Source: Bergeyella cardium
Lineage (GTDB): Bacteria > Bacteroidota > Bacteroidia > Flavobacteriales > Weeksellaceae
NCBI RefSeq assembly: GCF_003614945.1
Contig: NZ_QYCZ01000001.1
Location: forward strand, 576,001-640,000
DNA length: 64,000 nucleotides
Direction of reading: 5' to 3'
Shown one piece after another: positions 1,806 to 63,474 of the stretch (positions are counted from its first letter, which is position 1; each line of letters opens with the position of its first letter). The notes beneath the pieces are model-generated. The model was not told where the DNA came from. It saw only the letters and a list, made by a program, of their open reading frames with translations, and made no database searches. The translations under genes were made by a program, and so were the position numbers.

Positions 1806-1854
1806 TGCCAATACCTGTTAGCAAAGCCTACTGCTTACTGCCTGTCGCCTAAGG
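1806..1854. repeat. heptamer-phased degenerate repeat at the guaB 3' end
   Basis: The stretch just beyond the guaB stop can be written as successive 7-mers (CCTACTG, CTTACTG, CCTGTCG, CCTAAGG, CTTATAG). The same words recur after mfd, clpP and the 17.8 kb kinase gene, also in 7-bp steps. It does not look coding. Confidence 0.55.
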
Positions 1855-1855
1855 C

Positions 1856-3316
1856 TTATAGCGAATAGTTCGGTGCTTCTTGGGTAATGATAACATCGTG
1901 GGGGTGGGATTCTTTGAGGCCGCTGCCTGTAATCTTCACCATTTTGCTATCGGTTTGTAGGGTAGGGATGTCCTTCGTGCCGCAGTAGCCCATACCCGCG
2001 CGGATGCCCCCTACGAGCTGGAAGACTACATCTTCTATCTTCCCTTTGTATGGCACTCTGCCTTCTATGCCTTCGGGTACGAATTTCTTTGCTTCTGCTT
2101 GGAAGTATCTTTCCTTGCCTCCTCTTCTCATCGCTGCGAGGCTCCCCATACCTTGGTAGGATTTAAACTTTCTACCCTGGAAGATGATTTCCTCGCCTGG
2201 AGCTTCTTCCGTTCCAGCAAAGAGGGAACCGAGCATTACGGCATTTGCACCCGATGCAAGGGCTTTTACAATGTCGCCAGAGAGCTTAATACCCCCATCG
2301 GCGATAACGCTTACGCGTCTGGTTTTGGCGTATTCGTAGACATTGTAGATTGCGGAGAGCTGAGGTACGCCCACACCCGCCACTACTCGAGTAGTGCAGA
2401 TGGAGCCTGGACCAATGCCTACTTTCAGGACATTGGCGCCGGCATCGATGAGGTCTTTTGCTGCTTCTGCGGTTACGATATTCCCGCCCACGATATCCAA
2501 ATCTGGATACGCGGAACGAATCTCTCGGATTTTTTCAACCACTCCTTTGGAATGCCCGTGTGCGGAGTCTATGGTGATGATATCTACACCTGCATCTACA
2601 AGGGCTTTTACGCGCTCCATAGTATCTACGCCTACCCCTACGCCAGCCCCTACGATGAGCCTGCCGTTTTTGTCTTTATTGGCATTGGGGTATTCCATCT
2701 GGTTGTCTATATCCTTTATGGTGATGAGCCCTACGAGGCGATATTCATCATCTACGATAGGGAGCTTCTCTACTCGGTTGCTCAGGAGGATTTCCTTTGC
2801 TGTTTCCAGTGTAGCATTCTTATCGGAGGTAATGAGGTTGTCCTTCGTCATCAGTTCTTCTACCTTTATAGATTCATCTTCTTGGTATTTTACATCTCTG
2901 TTGGTAATGATTCCTATCAGTCTGTTATTAAAATCTACCACAGGAAGCCCTGAAATCTTATATCGAAGCATCAGTTCTTTTGCTTCGCCCAAAGTATGGT
3001 CTTTGGTAAGGGTTACGGGGTCAGAAATCATTCCGTTTTCTGAGCGTTTTACCTTATTTACCTGAGCGGCTTGCTCATCTATCGGCATATTCTTATGAAT
3101 GAAACCGAGCCCGCCTACGCGTGCAAGGGCAATGGCAAGTTCTGCCTCGGTTACGGTGTCCATAGCTGCAGAGACGATGGGCGTGTTCAGGGTAATCTTG
3201 TCGGTAAGTCTTGATTGAAGAGAAACTTGGTTCGGAAGTACTTCGGAGTACGAAGGGATGAGGAGTACATCATCAAAAGTAATGGCTTCCTCTACGATTT
3301 TGTTGTGTATAGACAT
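1856..3316 (-). CDS. guaB: inosine-5'-monophosphate dehydrogenase
   Basis: GuaB oxidises IMP to XMP with NAD+, the rate-limiting step of guanine nucleotide synthesis. The 486-residue protein has the usual TIM barrel interrupted by a pair of CBS domains (about residues 97-205, with KISGLPVVD and RVEKLPIVD repeats). The catalytic loop [11 protein letters not shown] places the nucleophilic cysteine at C307. The [10 protein letters not shown] segment and the flap region with YRGMGS-type sequence (here [10 protein letters not shown]) are also present. An antisense open frame of 284 codons inside this gene is a shadow. A TAATTTTG element 14 nt upstream shows the gene has its own promoter, and a strong hairpin follows it, so it is probably monocistronic. 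Confidence 0.97.
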
Positions 3317-6238: not shown

Positions 6239-6296
6239 CCTGCCTGTTTCAGCTGTTGGCATTCTGCTTTCAGCTTTTGAGCATTTAAAGAAAGAT

Positions 6297-9200: not shown

Positions 9201-9716
9201 AAAAAAGAGGTCAATATAGATACCGACCTCGAGCTGATGCTCCCTGATGATTATGTACAAAGTACTGAAGAGCGGCTCCTGCTCTACCAAAGACTGGCAG
9301 AGATAGAGACTATAGAGGAGCTTCATAGCTTCCAAGCTCAGCTGATTGACCGCTTTGGAGACCTGCCACAAGAGGCCATCAACCTCCTGAAATCGGTAGA
9401 GCTTAAGTGGCTTTCGGCTGATATTGGCTTAGAGCGGCTTATTGTAAAGAAAGGGGTATTCCTTGGATATCTACCCCAAAATCCGCAGGACAAATTCTAC
9501 CGCAGCGAGAAGTTTGCCCATATCCTCAACTACCTTAGCCAAAACCCTACCTCAGCCGTTCTAAAACAAAAAGATACTCCTGAAGGTACCCAGCTAATAA
9601 TAAGAAAAGAGAAAGTAAAAAGCATAGAAGAACTCAATGACCTCCTTCATACCGTAGCCAGTGGAGCACGGCTACCAGCCGACGAACTTAGCCGTAGCAC
9701 AGCAGGCACACTGTAG
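6297..9716 (+). CDS. mfd: transcription-repair coupling factor Mfd
   Basis: Mfd displaces RNA polymerase stalled at DNA lesions and recruits UvrA. The 1139-residue protein has the expected order: a UvrB-like N-terminal region without its own helicase, the polymerase-interaction (CarD/RID-like) domain around residues 435-520 (IGDYITHIDHGIGKF), and a RecG-like motor. The motor shows GDVGFGKTE (Walker A), LLIIDEEHKFG (DEEH box), LTATPIPRTL, ESGVDVPNANT and QMRGRVGRG. The TRCF domain follows (EIRGAGDLLGAEQSG onwards). The last 15-20 residues (after LHTVAS) do not look like Mfd. They are encoded by the start of a dispersed intergenic repeat, which also supplies the stop codon. UvrA, its partner, is encoded at the right end of the window. 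Confidence 0.97.
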   Translation: MKKINESLLPELLRRDFGKDIFEGLSTHHYINVKGSAGSVPSLIAAELFTVQNKTLLFITDDKEAAFYITSEMENLVGEERVLYFPETHLEPYQIEKTQNANIVLRTEVLNKILLSSEPKVIVAHSGALCEKVIKKEDFKAISHKIKVGEQLDFNFTEELLHQFNFNPTDFVSEPGEFSVRGGIVDVFSYSNEKPYRISFFGNEVESIREFDIETQLSVGKVEEFELVSNMNFAVVGKRVPFLDILPPDTLIITQQAYATFNKIKSFYHQSLEKFGALSEAINHSHPEELFVSEEEFTQHFQRFKVVDFSAQPLSEKHLGDANRMELQLSQTPQPSFNKNFEMLIQDLEDKLHHQYSVWISFSNEKQRERLQNIFEEKEKNIPFQSFTSELHEGFIDTSSRISVYTDHQIFDRYQRFKPKNTFAKSEQLTLKDLMSLKIGDYITHIDHGIGKFMGLVKVNNDGNIQECFKLSYKNGDLLYVSIHSLHKISKYNGAEGKEIVLSKLGSTAWKSLKQKTKAKVKQIAFDLIKLYAKRKAAKGFAFTPDTYLQNELEASFIYEDTPDQEKATIEVKKDMEAETVMDRLICGDVGFGKTEVAIRAAFKAATDGKQVAILVPTTVLAFQHYRSFKERLKDFPVNISYLNRFRTTKQKNETLKGLEEGKIDIVIGTHQLVSDKVKFKDLGLLIIDEEHKFGVSVKDKLKTLRTNIDTLTLTATPIPRTLQFSLMAARDLSVIKTPPPNRQPVDTQLIGFDEEMLRDAISYEIQRDGQVYFINNRIENLQEIAGLIQRLVPDARVITGHGQLDGKELESRILDFMEGKYDVLVSTTIVESGVDVPNANTIFINDAQRFGMADLHQMRGRVGRGNRKAFCYLITPPMDMMTPDARKRLEAVEQFSDLGSGFQIAMKDLEIRGAGDLLGAEQSGFINEMGFDTYQKIMQEALEELQNDEQFEQYFENEEDRKKLFNSKKEVNIDTDLELMLPDDYVQSTEERLLLYQRLAEIETIEELHSFQAQLIDRFGDLPQEAINLLKSVELKWLSADIGLERLIVKKGVFLGYLPQNPQDKFYRSEKFAHILNYLSQNPTSAVLKQKDTPEGTQLIIRKEKVKSIEELNDLLHTVASGARLPADELSRSTAGTL

Positions 9717-9863
9717 CCAGTGAGGCGATTATCCACTCGCGTGGCACCTTGCAGGTGATGCACTTATCTACAAACTAATCATACACCGCCAATAGCCAGC
9801 CACTAATTAAGCTTACTGCCTATAACCGTCCACAGCTATTAGCTAAAAGCCAGTAGCCAATAA
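9650..9863. repeat. mosaic of dispersed short repeats across the mfd 3' end and intergenic region
   Basis: The block begins within the mfd C-terminal codons. Words of the form CCGTAGCCAGTGGAG and CTGTAGCCAGTGAGGC recur at 31.5 kb and, inverted, at 46.95 kb. Two small hairpins follow: CCACTCGCGTGG (9733-9744) and CACCTTGCAGGTG (9745-9757). The second is identical to one at 46588-46600. The next segment, GCACTTATCTACAAACTAA, nearly matches one at 17738-17754. From about 9779 the sequence becomes heptamer-phased (AGCTATT, AGCTAAA, AGCCAGT, AGCCAAT). No open frame of note. Confidence 0.65.
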
Positions 9864-9900: not shown

Positions 9901-9917
9901 TGCAGAGAGCTTTAAGC

Positions 9918-10607
9918 CTACTGCTTATTACTTGCTGCTTTTTGTAGTACTTCGTCTATCATTCCGAAGCCTTTTGCTTCTTCGGAGGTCATCCAATAGT
10001 CTCTGTCGGACGCCTTTTCTACCCAATCGAAGCTCTGCCCAGAGTGGGAGGAGATGATTTCGTAGAGTTCTTTTTTGAGTTTTAGCATTTCTCTGAGGTT
10101 GATTTCCATATCGGAAGCTACTCCCTGAGCACCACCACTCGGCTGATGAATCATCACTCGTGAGTGTTTTAGTGCTGAGCGCTTGCCTTTTTCACCTGCT
10201 ACGAGGAGAACTGCCCCCATAGATGCTGCCATACCCGTGCAGATGGTTGCTACATCTGGCTTGATGATTTGCATTGTGTCATAAATTCCGAGTCCTGCAT
10301 ATACACTGCCCCCTGGTGAATTGATGTAAATCTGAATGTCTTTACTTGGGTCTGCACTCTCTAAGAAGAGGAGCTGTGCGGTTACGATGTTTGCCACTTG
10401 GTCATCAATCCCCGTCCCGAGGAAGATGATTCTGTCCATCATCAGTCGGGAGAAGACATCCATTTGCGCTACATTTAGTCGCCTTTCCTCCATAATATAA
10501 GGCGTGAGGTTTGTGGGGTTAAACGCATTCATATATTGGTCGGTAGCGAGGCCATTATTGCCCAGATGCTTTACAGAGAAATCTCTAAAATCCTTTTTAA
10601 TATCCAT
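9918..10607 (-). CDS. clpP: ATP-dependent Clp protease proteolytic subunit
   Basis: ClpP forms the double-heptamer serine protease chamber that works with ClpX or ClpA/ClpC. With the ATG at 10607 the product is 229 residues. S129 in CTGMAASMG, H154 in MIHQPSGG and D203 in DRDYWM form the catalytic triad with the spacing of the E. coli enzyme. The longer open frame starting at 10676 is rejected because its first codons overlap a TACTTTTG promoter element at 10664-10671. The last codons (QKAASNKQ, then TAG) lie within heptamer-phased repeat sequence like that seen in nearby intergenic DNA, so the C-terminus may be lineage-specific. Confidence 0.95.
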   Translation of the reverse strand: MDIKKDFRDFSVKHLGNNGLATDQYMNAFNPTNLTPYIMEERRLNVAQMDVFSRLMMDRIIFLGTGIDDQVANIVTAQLLFLESADPSKDIQIYINSPGGSVYAGLGIYDTMQIIKPDVATICTGMAASMGAVLLVAGEKGKRSALKHSRVMIHQPSGGAQGVASDMEINLREMLKLKKELYEIISSHSGQSFDWVEKASDRDYWMTSEEAKGFGMIDEVLQKAASNKQ

Positions 10608-10663
10608 AGTTTTTGTTCTTTTAAGAATAGCAGGGCGGTTTTGGCAAAAAACATACCCAATTG

Positions 10664-10671
10664 CAAAAGTA
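10664..10671 (-). promoter_or_regulatory. -7 promoter element TACTTTTG for clpP
   Basis: TACTTTTG on the minus strand lies 56 nt before the chosen ATG. It overlaps the 5' end of the longer open frame, which supports the internal start. Confidence 0.55.
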
Positions 10672-10753
10672 GACAATTTGGCATAAAATCTATTATCAAG
10701 GCGGTTAATCTTTATTTAAAACCGCTGAGAAGTATTAATTCTGAAAAAATATT

Positions 10754-16376: not shown

Positions 16377-17717
16377 ATGGACGACTCGGTCAGGATACTA
16401 TTGGCTTTATTTCTTGTTATTCTCAATGGCTTTTTCGTGGCAGCCGAATTTTCAATCGTAAAAGTACGCTACTCTCAAATTCAAATAAAAGCAGCAGAGG
16501 GCAATCCTCTCGCAAAGCAGGCAGAGCATATCATTAAAAAGCTCGATGCCTATCTCTCCGCTACTCAATTGGGGATTACCCTTGCTTCTCTGGCGCTCGG
16601 TTGGGTAGGAGAGGCTGCCGTGCATAGCGTTATCGAGCGACTTTTCTTGTCATTCAATATCGGTTTAGATGAAACCCTCCTCACCACCCTCTCTTTGGTG
16701 CTCAGTTTTCTTATTATTACCATCCTCCATATTGTGTTTGGCGAGCTGGTTCCTAAGTCTATCGCGATAAGAAAGTCAGAACCCACAGCAATGTTTATTG
16801 CCTATCCGCTAAGGATATTTACCACCCTTTTTCAGCCTTTTATCTGGCTGATGAACTCCACTTCCAATGGGTTTTTAAGGCTCATCAACATACCGCCAGC
16901 CTCCGACTCCGATATTCATTCCACCGAAGAACTTCAGCTTTTGGTAAAGCAGAGCGCAGATTCTGGCGAGATAGAAGAAGAGAATTACGAAATCATTAAA
17001 AATGCTTTTGACTTCACCGATCATTCTGCCAAGCAGATAATGGTACCGAGGCAGAACATCCATTCCATAGACATAGAAGACCCCATAGACGATATCCTCA
17101 ATACCATTATGGAAAGTGGCTACTCCCGAATCCCCGTCTATGAAGACTCCATAGACAACATCATCGGGGTGCTCTATACGAAGGAAATCATCCGCGAGTA
17201 TGTAAAGCGCTCGGGGAATATCAGCCATTCTGACCTTAGAGAACTGATGCGCGAGGCATTCTTTGTTGTCGGGAGTAAGAAGATTTCTGACCTGCTGAAA
17301 GTCTTCCAATCAAAGAAAATGCACCTCGCTATCGTCATTGATGAGTTTGGCGGTACGGAGGGCATCATCACCCTCGAAGATATCCTCGAGGAGCTCGTGG
17401 GCGAAATCCAAGATGAGGAAGATGACGAGGAGAAAATCGTAGAAAAAGTAGATGAAAACACCTACTGGGTGCAGGCAGCACAACCGTTGGAAGAGATTAA
17501 CGAGCACCTCCCAGAGGCGCTCCCGCTCTCCGATGAAGGTGATTATAATACCCTTGCGGGCTTTATTCTCCACGAGCTCGAAGATATTCCAGAGGAGAAC
17601 CAAGAGTTTAACCTGCTGAATTACCATTTTAAAATCCACAAGATGCAAAACAAGGGGGTAGAATTGGTCGAGCTCATCTACCAACCCCCATCCGATGACA
17701 GCACCAATAACCAATAG
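16377..17717 (+). CDS. hemolysin-family CNNM/CorC-type membrane protein (DUF21, CBS pair, CorC_HlyC)
   Basis: The 446-residue protein has the layout of CNNM/CorC transporters. An N-terminal DUF21 membrane domain (about residues 1-190, opening NGFFVAAEFSIVKVR, with three or four helices) is followed by two CBS motifs (about 205-335, including IMVPRQNIHSID and IDEFGGTEGIITLEDILEELVGEI). A C-terminal CorC_HlyC domain follows (about 350-430). Bacterial relatives are linked to magnesium or cobalt efflux. The flavobacterial gliding protein GldE belongs to the same superfamily, but nothing here singles that out. The stop codon lies in a repeat block. Confidence 0.88.
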   Translation: MDDSVRILLALFLVILNGFFVAAEFSIVKVRYSQIQIKAAEGNPLAKQAEHIIKKLDAYLSATQLGITLASLALGWVGEAAVHSVIERLFLSFNIGLDETLLTTLSLVLSFLIITILHIVFGELVPKSIAIRKSEPTAMFIAYPLRIFTTLFQPFIWLMNSTSNGFLRLINIPPASDSDIHSTEELQLLVKQSADSGEIEEENYEIIKNAFDFTDHSAKQIMVPRQNIHSIDIEDPIDDILNTIMESGYSRIPVYEDSIDNIIGVLYTKEIIREYVKRSGNISHSDLRELMREAFFVVGSKKISDLLKVFQSKKMHLAIVIDEFGGTEGIITLEDILEELVGEIQDEEDDEEKIVEKVDENTYWVQAAQPLEEINEHLPEALPLSDEGDYNTLAGFILHELEDIPEENQEFNLLNYHFKIHKMQNKGVELVELIYQPPSDDSTNNQ

Positions 17718-17795
17718 CACCCACTAGCGTGGGGAGCCACTTATCACAAACTAACCGTGCAACGCCTGTTGCTTACTGCCTACAACTTACAGCTT
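17708..17795. repeat. dispersed repeat block between convergent CorC-type and kinase genes
   Basis: The block starts at the stop codon of the plus-strand gene. It has a hairpin CCCACTAGCGTGGG (17720-17733), then GAGCCACTTATCACAAACTAA, which nearly matches the segment at 9754-9776. Heptamer-phased sequence follows (CGCCTGT, TGCTTAC, TGCCTAC, AACTTAC, AGCTTTA) and runs into the last codons of the kinase gene on the other strand. Confidence 0.6.
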
Positions 17796-29187: not shown

Positions 29188-29246
29188 AATATCATTAACT
29201 CAGAATTATTTATTATTAACTCCGAACAATTTACGATTAAAACAGA

Positions 29247-31505: not shown

Positions 31506-31660
31506 GGCAGCCACGGCGTGGCAGGCACTTTTTTTTTCATATATCAAATACCGTAGCCAGTGAGGCACTTAGCCGTAGTATGGTAGATACTTACAGCAAA
31601 TGAGCTACCTATTTATTAGCTAAAACCATTTGCCTATTACTTAAATTTTATAGGTTTATA
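31491..31660. repeat. dispersed repeat block after the ABC permease gene
   Basis: Two copies of a TACCGTAGCCRGTGAGGCA word (31494 and 31548 onwards) flank a hairpin GCCACGGCGTGGC (31510-31522), followed by AGGCACTT and a T-run that could terminate transcription. Further on, the sequence takes heptamer phasing (GAGCTAC, CTATTTA, TTAGCTA, AAACCAT, TTGCCTA). Together with the next repeat this fills the 456-bp gap before the phosphatase gene; no open frame is seen. Confidence 0.6.
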
Positions 31661-31699
31661 ATGTGTTGATAATACTATGAAAGTGTAAAATTGAAATTT

Positions 31700-31800
31700 C
31701 ATAGTGATGAAAGAAAAGTTCGTAGTGATGAAAATAGGATTGTATAGTGATAAAATAGAAAATCCATAGTGATGAAATTAGGATTTCTACTGTAGGAGAA
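31700..31800. repeat. degenerate tandem repeat, period 21-22 bp
   Basis: Units sharing the core (C/T)RTAGTGATGAAA begin at 31700, 31721, 31743 and 31765. A more divergent fifth unit (CTACTGTAGGAGAA) begins near 31787. The spacing is 21, 22 and 22 bp. Each unit has an A/T-rich second half. The unit lengths are not all multiples of three, which argues against coding. Confidence 0.75.
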
Positions 31801-40420: not shown

Positions 40421-40483
40421 TCCTCCACTTGTAGGACTGTTTCCTCCACTTGTAGGACTGTTTCCTCCACCTGTAGGACTGTT
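40421..40483. repeat. three tandem 21-bp copies between hmuR and hmuS
   Basis: Three head-to-tail 21-bp units (40421-40441, 40442-40462, 40463-40483) begin TCCTCCACTTGTAGG. The first two are identical and the third differs by one base (T to C); a partial fourth starts TCCTACG. They lie in the 161-bp gap between two genes of the haem operon. Confidence 0.9.
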
Positions 40484-40496
40484 TCCTACGCCTTGC

Positions 40497-46501: not shown

Positions 46502-46530
46502 TTTGAAAATATTTTAAATTAAATAGGCTA

Positions 46531-46538
46531 CAAATGTA
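46531..46538 (-). promoter_or_regulatory. -7 promoter element TACATTTG for the S8 protease gene
   Basis: TACATTTG on the minus strand lies 29 nt before the ATG at 46501. Confidence 0.5.
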
Positions 46539-46584
46539 GCTGAATACCCCATTCTCCACAAAAAATTATAGTAAATTTAACCCT

Positions 46585-46893
46585 TTACACCTTGCAGGTG
46601 ATACGATTCTTACTAAGAGCACCCCACTCAGTGGGAGTGGGGAGCACCCGTTAGCACGGGAGGCAATTACTTATAAGCCAAAAGCCAGTTGCAGCCACTT
46701 CGGGACCACCCTTTACCCCGTTCTGAGGTGGTTGCAGGCACTTCGGGACCACCCAACACCCACTTCCGAACCAGGTGAAACCTCAAAAATAGTGCAAACT
46801 TGATAATTTTAATAGGGTTTTATTAACAATAATGTAATATGCTAGCTTTTGGCTAATAGCTATTAGCTAATAGCCAGAAGCTAGTTGCTAAGC
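46585..46893. repeat. mosaic of small hairpins, 24-bp direct repeats and heptamer-phased repeats
   Basis: This gene-free stretch holds hairpins CACCTTGCAGGTG (46588-46600, same as at 9745), CCCACTCAGTGGG (46623-46635) and CCCGTTAGCACGGG (46647-46660). The last is followed by AGGCAATTACTTAT. Two 24-bp direct repeats (46688-46711 and 46731-46754, one mismatch) share CACTTCGGGACCACCC. From about 46850 it is heptamer-phased (AGCTATT, AGCTAAT, AGCCAGA, AGCTAGT). The 464-bp gap between the two protease genes contains no open frame. Confidence 0.65.
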
Positions 46894-46926
46894 AAAAAGC
46901 ACGGAGACTGAATCTCCGTGCTTTTT
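46894..46926 (-). terminator. intrinsic terminator of the M12 metalloprotease gene
   Basis: AAAAAGCACGGAGA and its complement form a 14-bp stem with a 5-nt loop; the minus strand ends in a T-run. It lies 40 bp after the metalloprotease stop and shares the GCACGGA core with the terminators at 34142 and 51515. Confidence 0.8.
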
Positions 46927-46965
46927 GTTTATAATTATAAAATAAGAGCCTCACCGGCTGCGGTG

Positions 46966-50694: not shown

Positions 50695-51396
50695 ATGAAA
50701 AAAGCAATTTTTACTTTTATCCTGTCCGTATTCGCTATTGGTGTGGTAAGTGCCCACGCAATCTGGTTAGAGACAAGCCCCAAAGGCAGTTTAGGAAGTA
50801 CTCACGAAGTGAGATTATTCTTTGCAGAGCCCAATGAAACCGAAAAACCTGTGGCTACAGCAAACTGGTATTCGGACTTGAATGAAGCTCAAATCGTGCT
50901 GACTTCTCCTTCGGGTAAGAAGCAAGTCTTAACCAAAAAACAAGCTGAGTTCTACTACTCCACCGAGTTTAAAATAGAGGAAAACGGCATCTATACCCTT
51001 AGCGTAAATCATTTGGTAAAAAAGGTGTATAAGCGAATGAGAATCCGCTACCAGACCGTAGCCTTCGTAAGTACCTTAGATGAAGGTAAAGACATCGTTA
51101 TCGGTGATAAAAAGTACTTCCAGATAGGGATTAATACCGCTTCGCAAGTGGGTACTCAGACTTACAAAGCCTTCTTCAAAAAGAAACCTTTTAAGAATGA
51201 GAAAATCGCCTTTGATTTCAGTGTAGATAATACAATGACCCTTGAAACCAATGCCAAAGGAGAGGTAACCATTACTCCAAACTCACCTAAAAAGTATATC
51301 GTAAATCTCGCAAGAAAAACCGATAACAAAGGGAAGCACCACGGCACAAAACACCTATGGGACTACGAATGGCTTACTTATTATTGTGGGCAGTAG
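50695..51396 (+). CDS. DUF4198-like periplasmic protein
   Basis: The 233-residue product has a signal peptide (about residues 1-20, ending VVSA) followed at once by HAIWLETSP. This N-terminal His/aromatic pattern, with a beta-rich body, is typical of DUF4198-like proteins found beside metal- or haem-uptake genes. A C-terminal HHGTKHLWDYEW segment adds further possible metal ligands. It lies 17 bp after the second hmuY, so a role in metal or haem uptake is inferred, not shown. Confidence 0.7.
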   Translation: MKKAIFTFILSVFAIGVVSAHAIWLETSPKGSLGSTHEVRLFFAEPNETEKPVATANWYSDLNEAQIVLTSPSGKKQVLTKKQAEFYYSTEFKIEENGIYTLSVNHLVKKVYKRMRIRYQTVAFVSTLDEGKDIVIGDKKYFQIGINTASQVGTQTYKAFFKKKPFKNEKIAFDFSVDNTMTLETNAKGEVTITPNSPKKYIVNLARKTDNKGKHHGTKHLWDYEWLTYYCGQ

Positions 51397-51514
51397 TTGG
51401 CTATTAGCTAATGGATTTTATTTAATAGTCCATACTTACTTTATACCTTAGAATTAATAACCATATATCATATTTTTACTTGTTACAGCTCCATCAAAAT
51501 GGAGTACAATTACT

Positions 51515-62948: not shown

Positions 62949-63076
62949 CTCCCCTCCCTCAAAATTCTTTCCTCTCCTCCTTAAATAGAGAAAATACTCC
63001 TCATAAATAAGACCATTTTCCTTAAAATTTCCTCTCCTTGTACCCAAAACCCTCTCCATCTTTCTCTAAAATCTCT
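62949..63076. other. C/T-rich intergenic leader to the 21-bp array
   Basis: The 128 bp after the CgeB-like gene are strongly C/T- and A-rich on the plus strand, with many CTCCTC and CCTC words. They look like eroded copies of the same array (for example TACTCC at 62995) but without steady spacing. No terminator is obvious. Confidence 0.4.
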
Positions 63077-63474
63077 TCTTTTTTATCAAAAATTCAATAT
63101 TCAATCTCAAAACTTCCTCTCTCCCCACCTAAATTCCTTCACTTTTTATCAAAAAACCAATACTCAACACGAAAAAATGCACACTCAATCAGTAAAAAAC
63201 CTTACTCATTATCAAAAATTCAATACTCAATAGGTAAAAAGCATTACTCAACTACAAAAAAAACTTACTCCTTGCAAAAAAATCAATACTCCAATCAAAA
63301 AACTGAATATTTGCATAAAAAAAGGCATTTTTCACTATAAAAAATGCCTCAAAACGAGCAAAAATTCAATACTCAACTTGGAGAATTGAATACTCAACCA
63401 GTAAAAAGATTTACTCAACTATGAAATTTCAATACTCCTACCTAAAACATTAAAAATTTCATAAAATTAAGTAC
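63077..63474. repeat. 21-bp-phased degenerate tandem array (about 19 units)
   Basis: Units begin every 21 bp at 63077, 63098, 63119, 63140, 63161, 63182, 63203, 63224, 63245, 63266, 63287, 63308 and 63329. One 20-bp unit at 63350-63369 is followed by 63370, 63391, 63412, 63433 and 63454. The consensus is TACTC(A/C)A, about four variable bases, a run of about five A, then three variable bases and AA or T. Nine of the units keep TACTC exactly. Unit sequences vary but the spacing does not. A 10-bp hairpin replaces the consensus in units 63308 and 63329. Confidence 0.9.
63323..63349. other. stem-loop inside the 21-bp array
   Basis: AGGCATTTTT (63323-63332) pairs with AAAAATGCCT (63340-63349) across a 7-nt loop. 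The stem ends exactly at a unit border. It could end transcription in either direction, since both strands continue in T- or A-rich sequence. Confidence 0.55.

Follow-up and report, generated by a model that had tools for sequence, protein, structure and literature searches.

The spacers of this genome (1.96 Mb) carry a degenerate family of heptamers with a 7-bp period; this much of the preliminary description is real, with the corrections given below. The family is one local 'dialect' of a class of arrays that also occurs in Flavobacterium, Chryseobacterium and Pedobacter, and neither simple slippage nor a known mobile element fully explains the arrays. They are probably intergenic heptamer repeats of the TAACTGA/STRR type, kept by a 7-base reader or by copying from array to array. 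More specifically, and at a likelihood that we put somewhat short of even, the sites would form a genome-specific family of degenerate, 7-bp-phased spacer arrays whose word is kept through putative reading in 7-base steps.

Heptad arrays in the genome and in the window

The genome-wide count, not the window (the whole 64-kb stretch analysed; 40% G+C), is decisive for the heptad signal. Across the genome, GCCNNNNGCYNNNNGCY has 211 matches against 7 for the reversed pattern, and control patterns were similarly rare for AGCYANTAGCYANT (23 against 1) and AGCYAWNAGCYAWNAGC (39 against 0). A search reduced to GGCNNNNGGC alone, its trailing N ignored, was not used. Periodicity was measured in 481 spacers (125 kb) from 41 stretches covering 864 kb, or 44% of the genome, with 20 of the stretches picked after hits had been seen there. 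The 7-bp period proposed earlier rises above shuffled intergenic DNA: at a score of 10 there are 46 lag-7 segments (7.0 after shuffling), and at a score of 14 there are 20 (1.0 after shuffling). Lags of 5, 6, 8, 9 and 10 stay near shuffle level, and lags of 14 and 21 are also elevated. At a profile score of 18, we counted 58 arrays in 125 kb of spacer (omitting three of the four copies of one duplicated spacer) against 7 in 722 kb of genes, and none in one shuffle of the sampled spacers. A role as DNA uptake sequences was considered and rejected: known uptake words are common inside genes, and these arrays are rare there. A conceivable alternative role is that of a frame-stop buffer, in which a 7-bp unit would close every reading frame.

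The arrays had been described as lying always at gene 3′ ends. These ends are indeed favoured, with the highest density in convergent spacers, but as a tendency only. Per kilobase of spacer, the 41 stretches hold 0.95 arrays in convergent, 0.40 in tandem and 0.31 in divergent spacers. In 20 later stretches the densities are 0.86, 0.10 and 0.07; these stretches were drawn from the remainder of the genome and so underestimate absolute array density. Seven of their 11 arrays fall in convergent spacers, which make up 15% of the spacer bases (p 0.0003).

Eight sites had been claimed in the window. We scored each with a heptad profile built from 391 heptads outside the window and compared it with 500 dinucleotide shuffles of its own sequence; genes were called with a home-made codon-score script, and spacer borders are approximate. 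The profile backs seven of the eight, four of them strongly, whereas 31598-31650 finds no support in it (p 0.18). The flagged span, 9779-9863, scores 33.4, with 95% of shuffles below 15.3 and none of the 500 as high. Spans 1806-1854 (24.4), 17759-17795 (20.6) and 46850-46893 (44.5) are also clear. Spans 9905-9935, 46670-46695 and 51392-51415 beat their own shuffles, yet they are short, with three, two and two heptads. The arrays themselves are as follows.

1826..1853, plus strand: GCCTACT GCTTACT GCCTGTC GCCTAAG, score 24.4, 2 bases from the 3′ end of the minus-strand gene 1856-3316
6247..6274, minus strand: weak array in a divergent spacer, absent from the earlier list, score 17.0 against a 1% spacer threshold of 15.5
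9835..9862, plus strand: principal array at the flagged site, with four GCY heptads (GCTATTA GCTAAAA GCCAGTA GCCAATA), score 33.4
9909..9929, plus strand: three GCY heptads, score 18.8, p 0.004 against its own shuffles
17764..17784, plus strand: GCCTGTT GCTTACT GCCTACA in a convergent spacer, score 20.6
46677..46690, plus strand: two heptads (GCCAAAA GCCAGTT), score 16.0, p 0.006
46845..46893, plus strand: seven heptads, the longest array in the window, between two minus-strand genes, score 49.7
51395..51408, minus strand: two heptads (GCTAATA GCCAACT), score 16.9, reached by 0 of 500 shuffles

The flagged site occupies a convergent spacer: on one side a plus-strand gene stops at 9716, and on the other lies clpP on the minus strand (9918-10676). 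The neighbouring array 9909..9929 overlaps the last codons of clpP (stop 9918-9920). Array 51395..51408 lies where a plus-strand gene reaches its 3′ end (51396). A blind scan of the window at the 1% threshold passed 5 of 36 spacers (0.4 expected), including the one with 6247-6274, and 3 of 50 genes. The triple-heptad pattern has 6 matches in the window against 1.2 expected, a number reached by 1 of 100 shuffles. Two of the six lie inside genes, so the window by itself is modest evidence. Sharing of words between sites is borne out, GCTTACTGC being found at three of them. The proposed word type AGCYANT captures one word group; there are two, GCYA.. and GCYT... At Rfam gathering thresholds, nothing in the window matched.

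A link between the heptamers and 21-bp arrays had also been suggested. It does not hold: the strongest 21-bp array has an identity of 0.24 at 7 bp and 0.21 at 14 bp against 0.83 at 21 bp, and GCY/RGC phasing is missing from the 21-bp arrays, which form a class of their own and show no 7-bp period internally. These degenerate spacer arrays, of unrelated sequence, give the strongest lag of the genome (at score 11, 44 spacers compared with 2.0 after shuffling).

40421-40493, window: 21-bp array
63047-63426, window: 21-bp array
29190-29240, window: 21-bp array
31694-31785, window: 21-bp array
L004 13656-13823, L019 12618-12757, L025 2355-2492 and others, outside the window: 21-bp arrays

Short hairpin modules of about 22-24 bp (for example CCCACTAGCGTGGGGAGCACTTATC) stand in series just ahead of several GCY arrays.

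9700-9765, window: hairpin modules
17715-17750, window: hairpin modules
46630-46680, window: hairpin modules
L016 7340-7395 and L013 620-720: hairpin modules

Make-up of the arrays and words of other genomes

Anatomy was taken from 56 runs with 288 heptads, after removal of duplicates and with the palindromic AGCT counted on one strand; a count with two overlapping stretches and both-strand AGCT gave the same picture. A heptad begins with GC, followed by C or T (0.47/0.53), then A or T (0.72/0.22) and then looser positions. Adjacent heptads agree at position 3 in 0.45 of cases (n 232) against 0.50 expected, at positions 5 and 6 in 0.38 and 0.35 against 0.39 and 0.33, and at position 7 in 0.49 against 0.43, a slight excess. 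Agreement at position 4 is clearly higher than expected (0.84 against 0.56), since heptads of the GCYA and GCYT groups tend to stay apart. For the four looser positions taken together, identity is 0.50 at a distance of 7 bp and only 0.38 at 28 bp, which indicates that some local duplication has happened here, but three identical heptads in succession occur in 0 of 23 arrays. Some arrays consist of RGC heptads and then GCY heptads. The strict profile finds three opposed pairs within 150 bp, all three with RGC leading, the remaining arrays being one-way; RGC comes first in 8 of 10 with one typed word and in 28 of 45 with a loose word. Near start codons, heptads are in GCY sense in 17 of 20 cases (p 0.003).

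Arrays with a 7-bp period recur around clpP in related genomes. The ClpP protein of this genome is closest, at 86-93% identity, to those of Chryseobacterium, Cloacibacterium, Kaistella, Epilithonimonas and Riemerella, which probably places the genome in the Weeksellaceae. We grouped 79 of 80 named clpP loci, omitting L092 (labelled Bdellovibrio). At score 12, the 19 Chryseobacterium loci hold 20 lag-7 segments (1.4 after shuffling), the 38 Flavobacterium/Flavobacteriaceae loci 51 (2.8) and the 16 Pedobacter/Sphingobacteriaceae loci 17 (0.4). Lag 8 is elevated as well, and other lags little. Sampled stretches at score 11 gave 17 against 3.8 shuffled in F. hungaricum, 9 against 1.6 in C. indologenes and 8 against 0.2 in P. 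planticolens. E. coli K-12 gave 0 of 77 spacers over 150 kb at the same score, and the outgroup genomes, in small samples from which 4 of 20 stretches were dropped as too short, gave 0 of 74 spacers for eight genomes of other classes and 3 of 77 (0.4 shuffled) for eight of other orders. One array searched against E. coli genomes found no match. The preliminary description knew of no degenerate heptamer family in Flavobacteriia; the degenerate family is there, but heptamer direct repeats had already been published from that group, according to the accessible text of PMC4679880.

Array words vary by locus and species, with AACYTGA, AATCTGA, TTGATAR, TAACCTC and TTTAGGG among them. The last, the plant telomere word, forms long perfect arrays in the chromosome of C. 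indologenes AA5 (L146 12722-12831 and L147 6857-6941). Among 14 genomes, the matches to AACYTGAAACYTGAAAC fall almost wholly in F. hungaricum (280), F. notoginsengisoli (169) and Flavobacterium sp. SLB02 (55); of the other 11, one has a single match and ten, including this genome, have none, and the reversed control has none in all 14. Among 118 genomes of the phylum, AACYTGAAACYTGAAAC occurs in eight and is high in three: two that belong to a single genus in the same order have 33 and 80 matches, and one from a distant family has 62. The reversed control gives 2, 2 and 6 in three of the 118 genomes and 0 elsewhere. In the genome from the distant family (G297), the 62 matches include, among those listed, only AACCTGAAACCTGAAAC, with no C/T variation.

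The GCY word is patchy too, in a search that drew on genera other than that of this genome. Across 148 genomes of the family it stands far above control in G024 (144/5), G033 (112/7) and G001 (73/2), but near control in many, as in G002 (180 against 119). Within one genus it runs at 112/7 and 73/2 but also at 10/2 and 9/2, which counts against a reader. So does the result that window-type arrays are present in 0 of 23 matching clpP 3′ spacers of Chryseobacterium-like loci. The profile of this genome is found in 1 of 251 Chryseobacterium, 3 of 209 Pedobacter and 0 of 514 Flavobacterium spacers at clpP loci, and in 0 of 8 and 0 of 61 spacers of two smaller groups.

Turnover, opposed arms and candidate origins

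Many Flavobacterium clpP-clpX spacers hold heptad or octad arrays whose words differ. In the best 25 pairs among 16 spacers, the last 88 bp ahead of clpX keep 92-100% identity, and the array slot aligns at an identity of 0.74-0.90 with 6-56 gap columns, where shuffling the slots gives 0.76 (sd 0.06). Alignment is still possible for some slots, such as L094 with L111 (0.88, 7 gaps); L101 and L093 have an identical flank, with a heptad hairpin in one where the other has an octad run. Since turnover is so fast at fixed places such as clpP-clpX, the arrays are natural markers of spacer rewriting. Arrays of period 8 (CTAAGNNN before CTTAGNNN) occur in the clpP-clpX spacers of the Flavobacterium loci L072, L093, L099, L110 and others, in the place where other species carry heptad arrays.

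The arrays might be old microsatellites, 7-bp copies made by slippage, blurred by point mutation and read by nothing, with the bias towards spacers and 3′ ends reflecting tolerance. Slippage is plain in one Chryseobacterium spacer, which has two copies in L049, six in L048 and seven in L047, six of these seven sharing one variant. Perfect arrays such as TTTAGGG in C. indologenes also fit, and in many bacterial genomes heptanucleotides are the most frequent class of repeat, a pattern attributed to polymerase slippage (Mrazek 2007, as cited in the accessible part of PMC4679880). We nevertheless regard this origin as unlikely: slippage acting independently could not put the same word at many loci across a genome, neighbouring heptads agree at the free base only by chance, and variation in the AACYTGA dialect is confined mostly to one position.

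This dialect was examined in stretches of F. hungaricum and F. notoginsengisoli, half of them selected for holding arrays. AAC-anchored runs contain AACCTGA 105 times, AACTTGA 85, AACATGA 11 and AACGTGA 6, and in 92% of cases in GAAA-anchored runs a C precedes the free base. Adjacent heptads agree at the free base at 0.34 (n 271) against 0.33 expected and at 0.31 (n 116) against 0.35. Recent slippage does not explain this, since it would make neighbouring free bases agree; neutral decay would blur every position.

The AACYTGA arrays also form opposed pairs, in which a GTTTCAR-run comes first and an AACYTGA-run second. Among listed places with under 300 bp between them, a hand count resting on 150 of 449 places in F. 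hungaricum and F. notoginsengisoli gave 18:0 for GTTTCAR first, and one in two further genomes of the same order gave 7:0. A scripted count over 20 regions, 18 of them chosen for such pairs, gave 20:0; these pairs lie in 14 tandem, 3 convergent and 3 divergent spacers, and none falls entirely within a called gene. With a loose AT-rich word, the order in the F. hungaricum stretches is 6:5. Translation-start bias was set aside as the cause of orientation, because paired arms hold their order in convergent spacers too (3 of 20 pairs). Base-composition polarity over all arrays is not taken as proof: it gives GT-first 53:20 in tandem spacers, but array-free tandem spacers lean likewise (226:123), and here the ratio is 10:10.

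Could such pairs simply be RNA hairpins at transcript ends, serving as terminators, stabilisers or spacers between operon genes, with heptads merely building the arms? Two paired AACYTGA arrays fold strongly (z -8.23 in F. hungaricum, -7.61 in F. notoginsengisoli), as do RGC-then-GCY arrays here: 46840-46895, where the first part of array 46845..46893 is self-complementary, has z -4.35, L015 -4.35 and L028 -5.11. All 14 tandem-spacer pairs lie 6-40 bases past the upstream stop codon. One-way arrays, by contrast, fold no better than shuffles (1806-1854, z +1.28; 17759-17795, z -0.65), and the flagged site is intermediate (z -1.14 and -2.11 on its two strands). At the free base, A-C mismatches (15) are about as frequent as A-T pairs (14), 3 of the 20 pairs lie between divergent genes, and Flavobacterium pairs have T-runs 5′ of the arms and A-runs 3′, the reverse of an intrinsic terminator. 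A terminator scan of spacer 46502-46965 flagged none at the array. Hairpin function is thus an improbable account of the arrays as a whole.

Across 24 hairpins with 64 free-base positions, 25 are Watson-Crick pairs against 29.4 expected, or 46 against 46.9 with G-T included. Because free bases match at chance, neither arm is a recent copy of its partner, and foldback copying as the origin of the paired arms in this dialect was rejected on the independence of their free bases. Selection for RNA pairing is likewise not visible at the free base; the other six positions hardly vary and are uninformative.

Dispersed copying, by REPIN-like mobile palindromes or by conversion between arrays, would account for a genome-specific word in many copies, its location in spacers and opposed pairs in a single order. 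A longer spacer is present with its array in four copies in this genome, and the array slot of clpP-clpX is swapped while its flank stays 92-100% identical (best 25 pairs). Inverted extragenic pairs are clear in F. hungaricum and F. notoginsengisoli, whereas here only three strict pairs lie within 150 bp. The Y1 transposase family PF01797, however, has no match in this genome or in G024, which show the GCY word more strongly than any other genome found. It has 8 matches in F. hungaricum, 5 in F. notoginsengisoli, 2 in a sampled Chryseobacterium and 3 in Pedobacter, but no AACYTGA arrays lie within 1.5 kb of two Flavobacterium Y1 loci. Loops between the arms differ, and arms match at the free base no more than by chance. 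We consider dispersed copying possible but not likely. The repeated spacer, of about 500 bp, lies at L004 4790-5190, L016 7395-7890 and L020 16022-16470, with part of it in L006 and L013; three copies also hold a 23-bp array containing CCTTCGCCCGAGAGAGCGAG.

Telomere-like writing, in which 3′ ends at breaks are extended with GT-rich heptads by an enzyme and the fixed arm order comes from the joining of two such ends, would fit the GTTTCAR-then-AACYTGA order of all 25 opposed pairs under 300 bp (hand count, listed places, four genomes), the single random free base per unit and the TTTAGGG arrays of C. indologenes AA5. Yet the reverse transcriptase family PF00078 has no match in this genome, G024 or the strong AACYTGA genome F. 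notoginsengisoli. The order is looser here (8:2, 28:17) and with the loose AT-rich word in F. hungaricum (6:5), and GT-first composition over all arrays is absent here (10:10). Such writing is highly improbable. For the GCY dialect, the absence of PF01797 and PF00078, as regards those families only, weakens both the REPIN and the telomere-like alternatives.

A putative reader and comparison with known systems

What favours reading in 7-base steps is that one word is common to many loci of a genome (211/7 here, 280/0 in F. hungaricum) and differs between genomes, and that constraint is position-specific, with neighbours and opposed arms independent at the free base. Local duplication here and slippage in Chryseobacterium count against it. 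Each array is a short run of heptads that share a fixed core (GCY here) and have looser positions, and in some spacers a reversed run comes after it. Each heptad might be read singly by a factor or process moving in 7-base steps, so that the core would be kept and the free positions would drift, and short local duplications could supply new heptads. The candidate reader may be a factor that binds DNA or single strands, or it may be the pairing step when one array copies another; any reader of the arrays, and any effect on the cell, is something that we infer.

A broader proposal, which we offer as speculative and rather unlikely, is that many Bacteroidota have a genome-specific 7-base dialect, its heptads having a fixed core and free positions and being assembled one by one in spacers, with a fixed arm order where paired and a 7-nt reader co-evolving with the word that in the boldest form also writes heptads. 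If that form were true, a putative factor would write heptads at 3′ ends, much as a telomere system does but with no known kind of telomerase. Bacterial heptamer repeats have so far been ascribed to polymerase slippage or, for one exact word, to a putative regulator. A word that is partly fixed, free at one base and genome-wide yet genome-specific makes a reader and array copying testable against each other.

In the open-access literature we found no published description of degenerate, genome-specific heptad arrays in this phylum. Heptanucleotide STRR are known from filamentous cyanobacteria. Compared by description only, they are likewise seven-base tandem units in spacers, whereas the units here are degenerate at set positions. 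Intrinsic terminators have a GC-rich stem followed by a T run, and the scan flags none at the 46845-46893 array.

A close precedent is the exact TAACTGA repeat of Beggiatoaceae, Cyanobacteria and five Bacteroidetes (MacGregor 2015, PMC4679880), for which the accessible text proposes a binding protein or regulator, or a role in rearrangement. The same text describes other heptamers beside TAACTGA in three flavobacteria (Gramella forsetii, A. sublithincola and Elizabethkingia anophelis). Like the GCY arrays, TAACTGA repeats are intergenic 7-bp direct repeats with many sets per genome; they are an exact word, near start codons in Beggiatoaceae (BOGUAY), as far as that text goes (PMC4679880). TAACTGA is not an array unit in this genome, where the units are GCYNNNN. 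The words described here are, unlike TAACTGA, degenerate and genome-dependent, densest between convergent genes and sometimes in opposed pairs.

Microsatellites (Mrazek 2007, cited in the accessible part of PMC4679880) share the preference for 7 bp, and slippage is real in Chryseobacterium; the arrays differ from them in position-specific degeneracy and in one word common to many loci per genome. For inverted extragenic pairs, the nearest analogue is the REPIN: REP/REPIN sequences, in the consulted portion of Bertels and Rainey 2011 (PMC3116915), are extragenic, genome-specific, present in many copies and arranged as inverted pairs, the last being clear in F. hungaricum and F. notoginsengisoli, with three strict pairs here. 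Unlike these elements, which are associated with a RAYT (Y1) transposase of a family that has no match in this genome, the arrays have arms made of tandem heptads in variable number that are independent of one another at the free base.
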